A stretch of 64,000 nucleotides of DNA from Desulfofundulus kuznetsovii DSM 6115. Its GTDB lineage: Bacteria; Bacillota; Desulfotomaculia; Desulfotomaculales; Desulfovirgulaceae. The notes beneath the pieces are model-generated. The model had not been told where the DNA came from. It was given only the letters and a program-made list of their open reading frames with translations, and did no database searches. The position numbers and the translations under genes are program-made. This document shows positions 41,923-48,735 of the stretch, piece by piece. Each line of letters begins with the position of its first letter. The stretch's first letter is position 1. The stretch covers positions 1,635,001 to 1,699,000 of the forward strand of contig NC_015573.1 of the NCBI RefSeq assembly GCF_000214705.1, in the 5' to 3' direction.

Positions 41923-44733
41923 TTATACTTTTTTAGTCAAAAGCTTTTGTATGGCCATTCGGGCCTCTTCTTTCAAAAAATCCACGTTACTATTCCGAGC
42001 TATGTCTTGCAAAGCTCTTATGGCACGGGGATCACTCAATTGCCCCAGTGCTTGGACTACAGATACAATAACTTCGGGATCCTTCTCCGTAGATAACAGG
42101 GAGAGAAGTGACGATACTGCCTTTTGATCACCCATCAAGCCTAGAGTAGCCGCCGCTCGGGATCTTACCAGGCGGTTCCCGTGACCTAAAGAACGAATGA
42201 GAGGAAGAACCGCTGGTACACCAATTTTCTCCAAAGCGTACTGTATAGAAGCAGCTAAATTGCTATCTTCATTTGCAAATGCTTCGATCAAGGGGAAAAT
42301 TGCCCGGACATCACCAATTTTCCCTAGCGCATTAGCAGCGGAAATTTGGGCAAACACCCCACCTTCCTGGAGGATTTTAATCAAAAACGGTACTGCTCTG
42401 GAATCGCCAATCTCGCCCAGGGCTTCAATGAACATACTACGCACTGAATCATCATCTTCTTTTTCGATTATCTCCATAATAGGTGCAATTGCCCTCGAAT
42501 CCCTGAGCTTGCCCAGGACTTGAGCAATTACCCATTTTACCTCAACCGCTTTTTCAAGTGAAATTATATCTATTAATGCTTCTGCTATGCGTGTGTCGCA
42601 TAAACTACCCAGGGCCTTTACTGCTTCTCGCCTGACCAGGGCAATATCATCATGTAAAGCTTGCAAAAGCGGATCTACTGCCTTTATATTGTTGAGTTTA
42701 CCCAAAGCGAAAGCTGCTGCCGCTCTTATTTTTTCATCCCCGTTACTTTGCAAAGTATGGCTCAACAAATTCACTGCTCGCTCTTCCTCATTTTTAAACT
42801 TTTTAATTATTTCTGTACATATTTCCCGTTCCTGAACACGTTCAGGCAACCATGACAGTGTCTGCCGGTCATATTTTCCCAAGCCTTTATCAATTAGGAA
42901 TGCAGCTTCTTCCATCGTGCCTTCCTCAAAACAATTTAGTGCTGCCAGTGAATGGAGCAACGGGATATATGGTAGATCATTTTCCATTTTTAGTTTTTGA
43001 GCGGCTAAACGCTTGGCTTCCCGTTTTTTTTCTTTAAGTTCCCGCCTAATCCTATTTACCTCGTCTCTTTCGTCATCAGTCAAGAAAAAGAACCCATTCT
43101 CTTCCCATTGTAATGGCCATCTCACGTAGGAAACCGGCTCGGCCTTCCAGTTTTTAATTGCAGGCCGAGCTTTCTGCAGGGCTTTCACCACCCTCCGCGT
43201 GATTAAAAAATCGTTACGATCCTTCAGACAGAAAAAATCACTACCATCCCAGGTATTCTCATCAAAGTAAAGACCTTGCTTGACTATCTCCGGCTCCCCT
43301 TCGGGCACTACGGAAGGCAAAACGGCAATGGGTGCCCGGGAAATATCTACCGAACCGGCACGCCCGGTGACGCATAGACCATGATAACCTTCAATTAACT
43401 TGCCGAATTTATCATAAAGTTCTACCGGGAAAGTCCTCCACCCCGTAAATTTATGCTCTAATAAAAGAGAGCGTACACGTTCTGAAATAAGGCAGAAAAA
43501 GGGTTCAACCCAAACAAAATCTTCAGGGACCAGTCTTCCGCCAACATAACGGCAGCGAATTGGTACTGGCGGTCGTGTTTCCCCGCGGATAAGATCATTT
43601 ACTTCTTTGAGCTCAAAGAAATCAAATATCTCGTTTACAATCTTTGCTTTAAAAAATCTTCCCGAACCAGGATTGGTAAGAAAAAACACATCCTCAAGCT
43701 CTAGCTTATTACCGGTCAAAGAAGAAGCTCTTTCCGGTATTAGTTTACTTAGAGCCTCTCCAGCAACCTTCTTAACTTCCTCTCGCAGATCATTTTGAAA
43801 TAATTCATTCAATGGCTTAATGGCACGCTTATCTCCTATTTTCCCTAAAATTTCGGCAACGCGCATGCGTATATCGCTATCCGTTTCTTCAAGCAACTTA
43901 ACCAATGCTCCTACCGCCGCATGCCCCAGTTCTGATAAGGCTCTGGCCGACCGCCACCGGACAACCGGATCTTTATCCTTCAATGCCTGGATTAAGGGTT
44001 CAATGGCTTCTTTTGCCCCTGTTTTGCCAAGGGCTGCGGCCACCAGCTCCCGGTTATTCAACTCTTTATTCTTTATTGAATTTGCAAGAGGCCCAACCGC
44101 CGCATTGCCGATTTTGCCCAGGGCCTCAGCCGCTAAACACCTATTGTTCCAGCTTCCATCTTTCAGCATGGTAAGAAGAAACGGAATTGCACTAGGGTCG
44201 CCAATCTCCCCTAAAGCCGTAACTTCATTGAACTCAATGAGAAAAGGAACGGCTCTTTTATCACGAATTTTTCCCAGGGCGGCTGCAGCATACGGACGGA
44301 AAAAGTCATCTTCCAACGCCTTAATCAGGGGCATTACTGCCTCTGGATCGCCGATTTCGCCTAGCATAGATATTATTCTCGTCTTGATACCCACATTCTC
44401 GCAGTTTAGCATCTTGATCAGCGGCTCTACTGCCGGCTTACCGATACCAACTAATGCTTCTTCCGCTTTTCTGCTAATCCGCCAGCTTTCACTTGTGAGG
44501 GCATTGATTAATGGTTCTACAGCCGTCCGGCCAATTTTAATCAGGGCTTCCACAGCACTTTGGCGAACAGCCCATTCCTCATCTCCCAAAGCGGAAATCA
44601 GTGGGAAAACGACTCGTGCGTCGGCCCATTGTCCCAAAGCACGAACCGCGTCCCGGCGAACTCTCCAGTTGTCATGATGCAGATTTTTTATGATTTCTGC
44701 TAAATTCATCATGATTAGCAACACTTTGATCAT
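41923..44733 (-). CDS. HEAT-repeat protein with a central immunity-like domain
   Basis: 936 residues in three blocks. Residues ~15-335 are about ten PBS-lyase-type HEAT repeats (for example AVEPLINALTSESWRISRKA). Residues ~345-640 are a separate globular region with GWRTFPVELYDKFGKLIEGY, SVDISRAP and FLITRRVVKALQKA, resembling DUF1629/Imm11-type immunity domains. Residues ~655-936 are another seven to eight HEAT repeats. Codon use and base composition are AT-richer than neighbouring genes. Start is uncertain: ATGs at 44733, 44712 and 44709 all lack a ribosome-binding site. A scaffold or immunity role is inference. Confidence 0.82.
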   Translation of the reverse strand: MIKVLLIMMNLAEIIKNLHHDNWRVRRDAVRALGQWADARVVFPLISALGDEEWAVRQSAVEALIKIGRTAVEPLINALTSESWRISRKAEEALVGIGKPAVEPLIKMLNCENVGIKTRIISMLGEIGDPEAVMPLIKALEDDFFRPYAAAALGKIRDKRAVPFLIEFNEVTALGEIGDPSAIPFLLTMLKDGSWNNRCLAAEALGKIGNAAVGPLANSIKNKELNNRELVAAALGKTGAKEAIEPLIQALKDKDPVVRWRSARALSELGHAAVGALVKLLEETDSDIRMRVAEILGKIGDKRAIKPLNELFQNDLREEVKKVAGEALSKLIPERASSLTGNKLELEDVFFLTNPGSGRFFKAKIVNEIFDFFELKEVNDLIRGETRPPVPIRCRYVGGRLVPEDFVWVEPFFCLISERVRSLLLEHKFTGWRTFPVELYDKFGKLIEGYHGLCVTGRAGSVDISRAPIAVLPSVVPEGEPEIVKQGLYFDENTWDGSDFFCLKDRNDFLITRRVVKALQKARPAIKNWKAEPVSYVRWPLQWEENGFFFLTDDERDEVNRIRRELKEKKREAKRLAAQKLKMENDLPYIPLLHSLAALNCFEEGTMEEAAFLIDKGLGKYDRQTLSWLPERVQEREICTEIIKKFKNEEERAVNLLSHTLQSNGDEKIRAAAAFALGKLNNIKAVDPLLQALHDDIALVRREAVKALGSLCDTRIAEALIDIISLEKAVEVKWVIAQVLGKLRDSRAIAPIMEIIEKEDDDSVRSMFIEALGEIGDSRAVPFLIKILQEGGVFAQISAANALGKIGDVRAIFPLIEAFANEDSNLAASIQYALEKIGVPAVLPLIRSLGHGNRLVRSRAAATLGLMGDQKAVSSLLSLLSTEKDPEVIVSVVQALGQLSDPRAIRALQDIARNSNVDFLKEEARMAIQKLLTKKV

Positions 44734-45305
44734 AAATAGTCAACTTAAACCTATTTGCATTTTCTTATCTTTTTCCATAAATCTTGAAAGAATTCCGCGA
44801 ATTTTATACCATATTTAGCTATCATATTACTGTCGCAAAATCAGAAACGAAACGGGCGGCGGTTGTTCCGTAAGGAGCGACATTTCGGAGGACCGGATAT
44901 GAAACACGCCCAGCACTCACAAGAGCCTATAACCTTCATTGGCCGTTAACTTGGATCTGAGCTTTAACTACCTGTCAAGTAAGTTGCGTCCGGTGAGTGC
45001 TGGGCAGAGGTTAGCGAACCGGCAGCGCGAATCGCGCTAGTAACAGTAATGATAGAATGATTAAGCTACTTATGTGCTGTAACTAGCCATGAGGAAAAAA
45101 GACTTTCGACGCATATGCAGCGCTGCCAGGTTCGCTCCGGGGCAAGTATGGCAGCGGCATCGGTAGACTTCAAAAAAATCTAACTGGTTCAGTTGCCGCT
45201 GCAGAGCAGTACGTGTGTATTTTCCGGAAACTTTTTTTGCGTCCGGCCCGTGGCACGGAGCGACGGGGGATGACCGCCGTCCCGAGAGTTATACGACAGT
45301 ATCTA
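44734..45305. other. Gene-free interval with several hairpins
   Basis: No gene recognised in 570 bp. It contains the second copy of the ~100-bp inverted-repeat element (44909-45004), a perfect short hairpin AGCGCGA/TCGCGCT (45024-45038), an 8-bp pair CGCTGCCA/TGGCAGCG (45121-45128 with 45149-45156) and a GACGG/CCGTC pair near 45261-45279. The density of palindromes suggests decayed mobile DNA or a structured RNA. Confidence 0.6.
44909..45004. repeat. Twin inverted-repeat element, copy 2 (96 bp)
   Basis: Same 12-bp termini (CCCAGCACTCAC ... GTGAGTGCTGGG) as copy 1 at 35788-35886 and inverted relative to it: the CACCGGA-extended end is on the right here (TCCGGTGAGTGCTGGG). Extended by one more pair (GCCC/GGGC). 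The interior has no ORF and is mostly different from copy 1 apart from a shared CAATGAA at a similar place. Confidence 0.75.
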
Positions 45306-45710
45306 TCATTCATCCTGCTGATTGTCCGCAGTACATTGGGATAATAAATAGTCACATAATGCCACATGGAAACCTTGATCTCTTAAATTTTTGATCAACA
45401 TAAGTGGTACTTCATCGCTTATGGCACCCAGAATTTTGGCAAGAGCCTCTTTTACATCTTTATATTTGAGAGGTTCGTTGGAAAACAAAAAATCTGTAGG
45501 ATAATCTTTAATTTTTCTAAAGCGCTCTTGTATTTTTTTACCATTAAATTTATCTGATAGTAATATGAAAAGTAAACCAATTTTATCTTGCTTTTCCGGG
45601 GATATTTGATAAGACACAATAAAATCATAATATGGGTATTTGGGATTTGTAACTTTGCATACAGATAGGCGTAAAATATAATCTGACAGCTCGTTTATTT
45701 TATTTTGCAT
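45306..45710 (-). CDS. Hypothetical protein, probably 5'-interrupted
   Basis: 134 residues from ATG 45710, no recognised family. The N-terminus is a short amphipathic helix (MQNKINELSDYILRL), followed by an alpha/beta-looking region with YYDFIVSYQISPEKQD and an acidic C-terminus. The ATG has no ribosome-binding site. In the same frame upstream there is GGAGGG, a 7-nt gap and TTG (45771-45773) encoding MGYELEEL, then TAA (45747-45749), then eleven more codons (KIIFQQQKKIDE) reaching the ATG. The natural start seems to be the TTG, with a nonsense mutation at codon 9. AT-rich like its neighbours. Confidence 0.55.
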   Translation of the reverse strand: MQNKINELSDYILRLSVCKVTNPKYPYYDFIVSYQISPEKQDKIGLLFILLSDKFNGKKIQERFRKIKDYPTDFLFSNEPLKYKDVKEALAKILGAISDEVPLMLIKNLRDQGFHVALCDYLLSQCTADNQQDE

Positions 45711-45849
45711 TTCGTCAATCTTTTTCTGCTGCTGAAAAATAATTTTTTATAACTCTTCTAGTTCATACCCCAAGTGATTTCCCTCCTATTATTCGACGAT
45801 TTATTTAGAACAACATTTTCCCTTTAATCTTAATATCCATCACGTCAAG

Positions 45850-46215
45850 CTAAACATTAATAAGGATAATACAGAAGATCAGATAAAACCCTATCGTAGC
45901 TACCAAACATAAGAAACATGATATTCTACCAAATTGTATCAACTGTCCTGCCAAAAGAAAAGAACTAAAACCAGCAGCAAATCCCGATAATACTAACGTA
46001 CTATATTTGAAAATGCTGGAACGATTAAAAAAATAATTAAGAATTCCTAATGCCAGAGAAACTATAACCCCAGCTATGGCTATATTTACATCACTCATTG
46101 TCAAAAAATTCATCCTTTGACATGTAGAGCATCCTTGATTACTGTATTTGTTCAGTGCTAGGTAAGAAAGTATGGAAAGATTAAGCAAAGAAAGAAAGGT
46201 TATTTTATTAAACAT
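45850..46215 (-). CDS. VKOR-like four-helix membrane thiol oxidoreductase
   Basis: 121 residues with four hydrophobic helices. Two cysteine pairs are visible: CSTC in the first extramembrane loop (residues 29-32) and CFLC at the start of the last helix (SCFLCLVATIGFYLIF). This layout, with a glycine-rich second helix (AIAGVIVSLALGILNYF) and FLLAGQLIQF before the second pair, fits vitamin-K-epoxide-reductase (VKOR/DsbB-like) proteins that make disulfides. No thioredoxin fusion is present. It sits 3 bp after the PH-like membrane protein gene and downstream of a cysteine-rich peptide remnant. Confidence 0.6.
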   Translation of the reverse strand: MFNKITFLSLLNLSILSYLALNKYSNQGCSTCQRMNFLTMSDVNIAIAGVIVSLALGILNYFFNRSSIFKYSTLVLSGFAAGFSSFLLAGQLIQFGRISCFLCLVATIGFYLIFCIILINV

Positions 46216-46218
46216 GTT

Positions 46219-46791
46219 TTACACTTTCTTCACATTACTTTTTTTATTTTCTTTAAGATACCTTAGTATCGTATCAAGCATTTCATCTGGTTTTAAAGGA
46301 GAAAGATAATATTTTCTTTTTGATGTTTCTATTAGAAGTAGCTTTTCTGAACGTGTAACAAAAGTACTTACAGGTCCAGTACCTATTTCAAATAACAATG
46401 TTGCACCTAATACCCACCATATCGGCATAGAATCTATAATCTCGGTTTTCTGAATTTCTGAGTAATGAATACATACATTTCCAATTAGGCGCCTAACAAT
46501 TACTCCCTTTGCACCGACAGTGTAAAGACGCGGGGAATAAAAAAGGTGTATTAACCCAATCATAGTCCACATCCCGCCAAACGAAACTATTATAATTAAA
46601 AATAAGGTAAATATACCCTTAATAAAAAAATTTATTGTTCTTGTTTCCGTAAATATTAAAACTAAAGATAACATAGATAAAAGTATAATAAGAAAAACAG
46701 ATCCAATTATCCAGATTTTTAGTTGAAATTTAAAATTTCCCTCGATAGGGGCAACTTGAAAATTTTGACTATATCCATTATTAGTAACCAT
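46219..46791 (-). CDS. Membrane protein with PH-like domain
   Basis: 190 residues. Two transmembrane helices (about 26-48 and 56-82) are followed by a cytoplasmic region beginning LYTVGAKGVIVRRLIGNVCI, a bacterial PH-like fold, with a third hydrophobic patch (MPIWWVLGATLLFEIG) and a lysine-rich tail. Proteins of this design occur as accessory or self-immunity factors of bacteriocins, but that role is inferred only from the neighbours. Two TTGAC/TATAAT-like pairs lie upstream, with non-ideal spacing. Confidence 0.6.
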   Translation of the reverse strand: MVTNNGYSQNFQVAPIEGNFKFQLKIWIIGSVFLIILLSMLSLVLIFTETRTINFFIKGIFTLFLIIIVSFGGMWTMIGLIHLFYSPRLYTVGAKGVIVRRLIGNVCIHYSEIQKTEIIDSMPIWWVLGATLLFEIGTGPVSTFVTRSEKLLLIETSKRKYYLSPLKPDEMLDTILRYLKENKKSNVKKV

Positions 46792-46965
46792 TTCTCATCA
46801 ACCTTTTTAGCATATATATATAATGATTATAACTTAGCTAAGTAAAAGCAGTTGTCAATTTTTAAGGGAACACGTTAAAGGAGGTTAAATAATTATACTT
46901 TGAATCAACGATGGTCAAGTAATATTGAATAAGATATCCGTTCCCCTATTATTATAAAATATTTA

Positions 46966-46996
46966 GAAAAACCTTGCTATCAGGAATAATAACAAG
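46966..46996 (-). terminator. Terminator-like hairpin after the peptide remnant
   Basis: On the minus strand ACCTTG pairs with CAAGGT and is followed by TTTTCT. It lies between the cysteine-rich peptide remnant and the PH-like gene. A weak terminator after a precursor peptide gene is common in bacteriocin operons. Confidence 0.5.
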
Positions 46997-47052
46997 GTCC
47001 TTTCTAGAATGCTAAACCTTGCTTAAATTATCACTGGTTCAACGACAAAAAT

Positions 47053-47202
47053 TTAAGGACATAAACCTACTTTTTCATACACCCATGAACTACCAAGAGC
47101 ACATGCTAGATTGAGCCCTACAGTATAACAAATAAAGACGCAAATTCCAGTACATGCAGCTACCACAATCGGGTTTGCAGATCTACCACAAATCGCCGGA
47201 TT
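47053..47202 (-). pseudogene. Remnant of a six-cysteine hydrophobic peptide (bacteriocin-like)
   Basis: A 49-codon minus-strand frame between two TAA codons with no proper start. It reads with cysteines at 5, 17, 21, 25, 34 and 48; segments include AACTGICVFICYTVGLNLAC and ALGSSWVYEKVGLCP. Spacing of cysteines within hydrophobic glycine/alanine stretches and the ending GLC resemble halocin-C8-like bacteriocins. Leader and start are missing, possibly from a frameshift or truncation next to gatB, or initiation at ATT 11 nt after AGGAG. Neighbouring VKOR-like and PH-like membrane proteins fit a disulfide-stabilised peptide locus. Confidence 0.45.
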
Positions 47203-47289: not shown

Positions 47290-48735
47290 TTAGCTGGAAT
47301 GGAGCTTTTCCTTGAGCAGGCGGTTGACCAGCTCCGGGTTGGCTTTGCCCCGGGTGGCCTTCATTACCTGGCCCACTAAGAAACCGAAGGCCCTGTCCTT
47401 TCCTTTCAGATAGTCTTCCACCACCTTGGCGTTGCCGGCCAGCACTTCCTCTACTATGGCGGTAATGGCCCCCTCATCGGTAATCTGTACGAGCCCCTTT
47501 TCCTGCACAATCTGTTCCGGATCCTTGCCGGTGGCAAACATCTCTTCGAAGACCGTTTTGGCAATCTTTCCGCTGATGGTGCCCTTGTCCATCAGCTTGA
47601 GCATGTCGGTCAGCTGCCGGGGCGATACCTTGCACCGGGTAATGTCCATGTTATGGGCATTCAACAGGCGCGAGAGGTCCCCCATCATCCAGTTGCTGAC
47701 CGCCTTGGCGTTGGGATAGAGGGCTACACACTCTTCAAAGTAATCGGCCATTTCTTTGGTGGCGGTGAGCACGGTGGCGTCGTAGGCCGGGAGATCGTAG
47801 CGCTTGATGTAGCGGTTGCGCCGCTCGTCGGGAAGCTCGGGGAGGGTGGCCCGTATTTCCTCCACCCACTGCCGGTCAATCACCAGGGGTACCAGGTCCG
47901 GCTCGGGGAAGTAGCGGTAATCGTGGGCTTCCTCCTTGCTGCGCATGGGCAGGGTTACCCCTTTGTTTTCATCCCAGGTGCGGGTCTCCTGGACGATGCG
48001 GCCGCCTTCCTGGAGCACGGCAATTTGCCGCTCCACTTCGTAGGCCAGGGCCCGCTGCAGCGCTTTAAAGGAGTTCATGTTTTTAATTTCCGTTTTCGTG
48101 CCGAATTCCCGGCTCCCCCTGGGGCGTACGGAAACGTTGGCATCGCAGCGTAGAGACCCTTCCTCCATTTTGCAGTCGGAAACTCCGGTGTACTGGATGA
48201 TGGCCTTCAATTTTTCCAGGTAAGCCCGGGCCTCCTCGGGGGAACGCATATCCGGCTCGGAGACGATTTCAATGAGCGGTACGCCGGTGCGGTTGTAGTC
48301 TACCAGGGAATAGGGGGAGGTGGCAATGGTGCCCTGGTGGATCAGCTTGCCCGCATCCTCCTCCATGTGTATGCGGGTGATCCCGATGCGCTTGGTTTGC
48401 CCGTTCACTTCAATGTTCAGGTAGCCATTTCTGGCCAGCGGCAGGTCATACTGGGATATCTGGTAATTCTTGGGCAGGTCCGGGTAGTAGTAGTTTTTGC
48501 GGTCGAACTTGGAATATTCGGCAATTTCGCAGTTCAGGGCCAGAGCAGCCCGGATGGCGTATTCCAGCACCTTTTTATTTAAAACCGGCAGCACTCCCGG
48601 CAACCCCAGGCAAACGGGGCAAACATGGGTATTGGGGTCCCCCCCGAATTCCGTGGTGGACGGGCAAAAGATCTTGCTTTTAGTTTTTAATTCCACGTGT
48701 ACTTCCAGGCCGATGATGGTTTCGTATTCAGTCAA
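47290..48735 (-). CDS. gatB: Asp/Glu-tRNA(Asn/Gln) amidotransferase subunit B
   Basis: 481 residues. The kinase-like GatB core starts [20 protein letters not shown] and contains [25 protein letters not shown] and [18 protein letters not shown]; the C-terminal YqeY/tail domain ends [14 protein letters not shown]. It activates mischarged Glu-tRNA(Gln) or Asp-tRNA(Asn) with ATP while GatA supplies ammonia. It is third in gatC-gatA-gatB order on the minus strand, 15 bp after gatA. Confidence 0.97.

Follow-up and report, generated by a model that had tools for sequence, protein, structure and literature searches.

Some sulfate-reducing and related Clostridia probably pair a secreted cysteine-rich peptide, itself probably antimicrobial, with a VKOR-like enzyme of its own, as judged from the comparison of their sequences. 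The 64,000-nucleotide stretch of Desulfofundulus kuznetsovii DSM 6115 analysed here (NC_015573.1, positions 1,635,001 to 1,699,000; hereafter the window) is likely, in our estimation, to carry a dead member of this VKOR-coupled, disulfide-stabilised, bacteriocin-type family. With the same degree of assurance we regard 45850-47190 as a horizontally acquired, AT-rich and now broken member of a secreted-peptide locus family; the G+C content of the island is 24-36%, compared with about 55-60% next to it and in gatB. A first-pass annotation had proposed a disulfide-stabilised peptide system here, and the truncated gene of a secreted cysteine-rich peptide, the PH gene, the VKOR-fold oxidase and intact homologues in the same order bear this out, whereas membership in the halocin C8 group and the inclusion of a fourth gene were not supported. 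The features of the locus are as follows.

47290-48735: gatB; the peptide, PH and VKOR-like frames lie downstream of it
47191-47202, minus strand: host-derived codons (NPAI) that read into the peptide frame, recognised by comparison with congeners
47053-47202, minus strand: cysteine-rich peptide frame ending in VGLCP, with no start codon
47053-47190, minus strand: 3' end of the precursor gene, 45 codons (CGRSANPIVVAACTGICVFICYTVGLNLACALGSSWVYEKVGLCP) plus stop, with six cysteines and no leader or start
46964-47006, minus strand: terminator-like hairpin with a U run, behind the peptide frame, recognised by folding energy
46219-46791, minus strand: PH-domain membrane protein, 190 aa (Pfam bPH_5, E 3.9e-9, above cut-off)
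45850-46215, minus strand: membrane thiol oxidoreductase of predicted VKOR fold, 121 aa, four helices, C29xxC32 and C100xxC103
45306-45710, minus strand: 134-aa protein with a weak resemblance to DUF1878, below cut-off; a neighbour outside the module

All four minus-strand frames (cysteine-rich, PH-like, VKOR-like and small protein) are present as originally drawn. The peptide frame does hold six cysteines and end in VGLCP, but only 47053-47190 is foreign, the NPAI codons belonging to the host. The VKOR-like gene starts three bases after the stop of the PH gene, and the reading frames of both are still open. What had been called a weak terminator is indeed a hairpin, but a long one with U's: a 116-nt stretch of this region folds at -27.2 kcal/mol versus -17.1 for shuffles (z -3.5). 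The hairpin is absent from a simple consensus terminator scan, and an Rfam scan across the locus returned no match. The PH protein matches its Desulfoscipio homologue at E 2e-9 and has the same family and position as in intact class-I loci, described below; its position probably marks it as a candidate immunity protein, and in the other classes a different small membrane protein occupies its place.

Two neighbours were rejected as parts of the module. The 134-aa gene, previously counted as the fourth member of the system, has no homologue at any related VKOR locus, and homologues of the HEAT gene occur in genomes without a VKOR-like gene. The latter gene (41923-44733) encodes a HEAT-repeat protein of 936 aa whose middle part is not made of HEAT repeats, and it is absent here in two congeners; a homologue (E 3e-127) in another genome (G072, L087) lies just upstream of a lipoprotein gene and a broken VKOR-like gene. 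Separately, 44828-45308 is a copy of a dispersed repeat of about 300 bp with at least 20 copies in the genome and no Rfam match at E<=1. In a different copy, 300 nt fold at -148 kcal/mol into a single, very long hairpin whose inverted ends read TACTGTC...GACAGTA, and the window copy carries two additional segments of about 90 bases each.

The state of the precursor gene became clear when five congeners were compared at gatB (L054-L058). Behind gatB, as far as 47191, three of them (L055, L056, L058) match the window at 90-97%; beyond that base they read CCAGGATCCCGGCAGACA... or nearly so, where the window has TGTGGTAGATCTGC..., and a search of the window genome did not find their continuation. 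L054 and L057 differ in that a transporter gene (window 41728 and below) stands directly behind gatB, with neither the HEAT gene nor any of the island present. Since the congeners share DNA down to 47191 and then differ, 47190/47191 is a rearrangement junction at which the precursor gene was truncated, and the peptide gene in the window is a dead copy. The lack of leader and start, correctly read as decay in the first-pass annotation, has its cause here, because the junction left only 45 codons of the foreign gene. The rearrangement removed the signal, the prodomain and the first third of the mature domain, so that the window can make no peptide. The locus displays an order of death in which the toxin part is the first to be lost and the genes of the immunity type and of the oxidase are still open. 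Behind gatB in L055, an IscB-like ORF with a structured leader, identified by eye, lies near the junction-equivalent sequence, and with this ORF close by the intergenic place looks prone to insertions.

Homology shows that the 45-codon, six-cysteine frame belongs to a real gene, of which it forms the 3' end. It matches a 64-residue frame in another genome (G316, locus L093) without gaps over 44 residues, 18/44 of them identical (E 1e-7), and that frame adjoins a VKOR-like gene and overlaps a 224-residue frame with a signal sequence. A homologue of the peptide thus exists, whereas the first-pass annotation had stated that its proposal would fall if none could be found. Among the 1,475 stop-to-stop frames of the window, the remnant ranks first and is the sole significant match to the L093 frame (E 3.6e-5). 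The cysteine spacing (x11, x3, x3, x8) is equal in the two save at one position, the penultimate family cysteine being replaced by another residue in the window remnant. The L093 locus is also damaged, its VKOR-like frame ending after 88 residues. The link of the remnant to the family came only through this homologue, because a profile of class-I domains alone placed the remnant second in the window at an insignificant E of 0.92; a peptide profile that included the remnant itself, and is therefore partly circular, gave E 1.5e-13. The remnant found no match in NCBIfam or Pfam, nor did tblastn of the peptide against plasmids, and as a lone query in 100 relatives it gave weak, scattered matches that were not used as evidence. 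In 368 genomes the inspected weak matches of the peptide profile added nothing to the VKOR loci already known; those at L136-L138, L140, L144 and L145 looked like spurious frames and were rejected.

The enzyme next to it has, in its predicted structure, the VKOR four-helix fold and two redox cysteine pairs, which agrees with the VKOR-like thiol oxidoreductase identity first suggested. An AlphaFold model (14 sequences, pLDDT 82) had VKOR as its best Foldseek match (probability 0.97), and in VIA-align each of the best 12 PDB rows was a VKOR or VKOR-like structure (Z 12.5-13.8; rmsd 2.1-2.8 over 115-117 residues). The best non-VKOR rows, unrelated helical bundles, reach Z 12.3, so the VKOR lead is modest, and for this reason the argument for the fold rests on the unanimous top rows, the cysteine pairs and the conserved Q-x8-CxxC motif. 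C29, C32, L87, Q91, C100 and C103 are invariant across the 14 homologues, and the C100/C103 pair lies at the start of the fourth helix of the model (101-120). Pfam VKOR (PF07884, gathering score 27.5) gave no match to the window protein, and the closest homologue scored 15.0 bits (E 0.028), below the cut-off.

VKOR-like homologues were sought in 100 relatives, 398 phylum genomes, 113 order genomes and a named genome collection, the last searched with a three-row VKOR alignment that led to four named loci. At 11 of 25 loci the VKOR-like gene adjoins a secreted cysteine-rich precursor, defined by a rule that was fixed after the loci had been seen (150-400 aa, a hydrophobic N-terminus and at least 6 cysteines in the last 80 residues), while 299 kb of control DNA, which came largely from these genomes and took in the window, contained one spurious ORF that fits. 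The corresponding Poisson probability is about 1e-11, or about 1e-5 at a fourfold higher background, with the qualification that related loci are not fully independent. Broken precursors occur at three or more further loci (the window, L088 and L093 at least), and one locus (L098) is cut off by a contig end. At L086, L090, L095 and L096 the neighbours are other secreted proteins and not small peptides, some VKOR-like loci have no secreted neighbour of that kind, and a more distant VKOR branch outside the 25 loci (L026, L028, L029) has no such cysteine-rich gene. VKOR-like genes thus often have a cysteine-rich precursor beside them, and the other refuting outcome named in the first-pass annotation, membrane genes that consistently lack such a peptide, did not occur either. 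The enzyme probably serves the neighbouring secreted cysteine protein, most often a small cysteine-rich one; because the family also adjoins non-peptide secreted proteins or none, the oxidase may serve secreted cysteine proteins in general. At L086, 6490-7632 encodes a secreted Amidase_6 protein (E 1e-12) with cysteines, two genes from the VKOR-like gene and separated from it by a lipoprotein of unknown family; this protein is likely another client of the oxidase.

Intact homologues beside VKOR-like and PH-like genes, which the original proposal had suggested looking for, retain the gene order of the window in Desulfoscipio geothermicus DSM 3669 (L032) and Pelotomaculum propionicicum (L033), namely precursor (279 and 280 aa, respectively), PH protein and VKOR-like protein; the PH protein of the former matches bPH_5 at 9e-16. 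Desulforamulus aquiferis (L034) retains an intact precursor (278 aa) and an intact VKOR-like gene alongside a broken PH frame. Class-I precursors terminate in a 73-residue domain with ten cysteines. Class II (L018, L039, L088) is homologous to class I over the whole precursor (hhalign probability 98.4), L088, which has one in-frame stop, being assigned by eye, and at L018 and L039 a membrane protein of 128-130 aa stands where the PH gene would be. The mature parts of both classes are small, C-terminal, very hydrophobic and variable. What class III (L023, L099) and class IV (L030, L097, L101) have in common with classes I and II is chiefly the signal region at the N-terminus, which has the form LLATPAxAGxA; their cysteine-rich ends are unlike, and L100 stands alone. 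Sequence comparison thus points to at least four unlike classes of mature domain behind one common signal sequence. Right behind that signal, the prodomains of the class-I precursors (L032 2096-2935, L033 1630-2472, L034 2192-3028) carry a CxPC motif (GCAPC), a possible intermediate in disulfide exchange between oxidase and peptide domain.

The class-I domain is predicted to be saposin-like, on evidence that we consider suggestive. The Desulfoscipio precursor was modelled at pLDDT 55 overall and 57-80 in its C-terminal domain. Of the five PDB rows that best match the whole-precursor model, four are saposin-like and fall on the last 75 or so residues (residues 191-279): Na-SLP-1 (Z 8.6), caenopore-5 (8.3), saposin D (7.4) and Ac-SLP-1 (6.2), a range of 6.2-8.6 that has to be read with the knowledge that helical bundles readily give middling Z. 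Foldseek alone placed no saposin-like structure in its top 50 for this model, a PDB sequence search gave no saposin-like match, and among the Pfam SapB models SapB_1 reached E 0.4, below the cut-off. The class I and II domains that were measured open with CxxC and close with Cx5C, spacings that fit the saposin disulfide frame and would be able to pair the N- with the C-terminal helix.

Taken together, a precursor of about 250-280 residues would be exported by the common signal, visible in the sequence, and its C-terminal hydrophobic domain of about 70 residues, with 10-12 cysteines, would fold outside the membrane and probably be cut off later. The VKOR-fold protein of the cluster would draw electrons from the peptide cysteines via its two CxxC pairs and pass them on, to quinone in known VKORs, and through this withdrawal the peptide would receive its disulfides; we infer this step, the nearest precedent for it being sublancin's BdbB, an enzyme of the DsbB kind. 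The disulfide-stabilised, probably saposin-like helical peptide would then act on the membranes of competitors, as its hydrophobicity and predicted fold suggest, and the small membrane protein encoded between precursor and oxidase, a PH protein in class I, is probably what makes the producer immune. If this is true, a VKOR-family enzyme gains a dedicated bacteriocin-type client, and the VKOR-like gene becomes a simple marker for unlike cysteine-rich secreted peptides of Clostridia that family models have missed. The hosts of these loci are largely anaerobes, a point against this explanation, and the loci would allow a test of how disulfides come to be formed in obligate anaerobes. Bacteriocins with a disulfide oxidase of their own are already known; a literature search of incomplete coverage found no VKOR joined to halocin C8 or to bacteriocin maturation, and no VKOR-fold oxidase of this dedicated sort.

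Considering what else could account for the locus, the idea of a peptide frame open by chance next to an unrelated two-gene unit of VKOR and PH would draw on the missing start codon, the silence of NCBIfam and Pfam and the E of 0.92 with class-I domains. It is highly improbable given the gapless E 1e-7 match to a frame next to another VKOR-like gene, the partly circular E 1.5e-13, the correct position and strand with a terminator-like hairpin behind, and an exact junction that accounts for the missing 5' part. Less remote, though in our view unlikely, is that the VKOR-like protein is the dedicated oxidase of a neighbouring secreted cysteine-rich protein that is no bacteriocin but, say, an enzyme inhibitor or a protein of the cell surface, of sporulation or of signalling. 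The presence of Amidase_6 and other secreted proteins beside the VKOR-like family, some with similar signal sequences, would fit such a client, as would the four unlike cysteine-rich classes, which share signal and oxidase and not the mature part. Against it, the class I and II mature parts have the size, C-terminal location, hydrophobicity and variability to be expected of peptides that act on membranes. Also speaking against it are the predicted class-I fold, which resembles that of pore-forming saposin-like peptides, and the small membrane proteins, of varying family, encoded between precursor and oxidase. A broader form of the bacteriocin reading, which we put forward tentatively, is a modular secretion-and-folding system in which one signal and one VKOR-fold oxidase would serve interchangeable cysteine-rich domains of at least four classes, some of them saposin-like bacteriocins linking bacterial saposin-type bacteriocins to archaeal halocin C8, with the window again as a dead member.

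Whether the bacteriocin-type family belongs to the halocin C8 group, which the first-pass annotation took the system to resemble, is a related matter, and membership was not supported. The TIGR04449 model (cut-off 24 bits) did not match the remnant, which retains only the last part of the roughly 70-residue frame and six cysteines where intact class-I relatives have 10, and it gave the relatives 10.9-17.2 bits (17.2 for the L093 frame), all below the cut-off, although class I aligns end to end with it (positions 1-69 of 69). Class IV has a weak similarity to the Gram-positive C8-like model TIGR04450, also below cut-off. Across the 398 phylum genomes TIGR04449 found one sub-threshold match and TIGR04450 none, the latter result being uninformative as controls gave none either. 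Haloarchaeal C8 precursors, found on plasmids with a mature halocin C8 query, have 10 cysteines, a CxxC start and a first-to-last cysteine span of 71 residues, compared with 70 in class I, and both groups are built from an export signal, then a long central section and then a peptide at the C-terminus. The inner cysteine spacing, however, differs, profile-profile comparison with the haloarchaeal precursors gives class II a borderline match, class I an insignificant one and the prodomains no significant one, and no VKOR-like gene adjoins any of the three haloarchaeal C8 loci that were read. A true halocin C8 family, in which the N-terminal part would confer immunity (as HalI does), the C-terminal part would kill and VKOR and PH would be accessories, is compatible with our best explanation and seems to us possible but doubtful. 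The locus family would work like halocin C8 and may be related to it, with membership not established.

Several known systems resemble the VKOR-coupled family in part. Halocin C8 likewise comes from a secreted precursor, about 280-310 aa long, that ends in a hydrophobic domain of about 70 residues with 10 cysteines and an opening CxxC (ProC8 has 283 aa and its mature peptide 76 aa; PMC11509114). The signal of the class precursors, in contrast, looks Sec-type and not Tat, the inner cysteines are spaced differently, and VKOR-like and PH or other TM genes accompany these precursors, which is not seen at the three haloarchaeal loci. With circular or leaderless saposin-like bacteriocins such as AS-48 and lacticin Q, class I would share a helical, membrane-active, saposin-like fold, predicted in its case, and differ in its 10 cysteines and neighbouring oxidase gene. 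Known saposin-like bacteriocins have no cysteines (PMC6072434), and the loci would, if the prediction is true, offer a test case of disulfide-bonded saposin-like peptides in bacteria.

The sublancin cluster (sunA-sunT-bdbA-sunS-bdbB, sunI) has the same logic of a thiol-disulfide oxidoreductase encoded with the peptide whose disulfides it forms: BdbB, encoded in the sublancin operon, makes those of sublancin, and the immunity protein SunI has a separate gene (PMC6391423). In that system SunT exports and cuts the precursor. The oxidase of the window family is, by prediction, of VKOR fold and not of the DsbB kind, and between gatB and the HEAT gene the window has no peptidase-ABC transporter, glycosyltransferase or DsbB-type BdbB. 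The enzyme itself resembles bacterial VKOR, for example that of Synechococcus (3KP9 / 4NV5), with which it shares the predicted four-helix fold and two cysteine pairs (Z 12.5-13.0). Compared with bacterial VKOR, the window family falls under the Pfam cut-off, is without a fused thioredoxin domain, has CxxC for both pairs, and is encoded beside one putative client gene.
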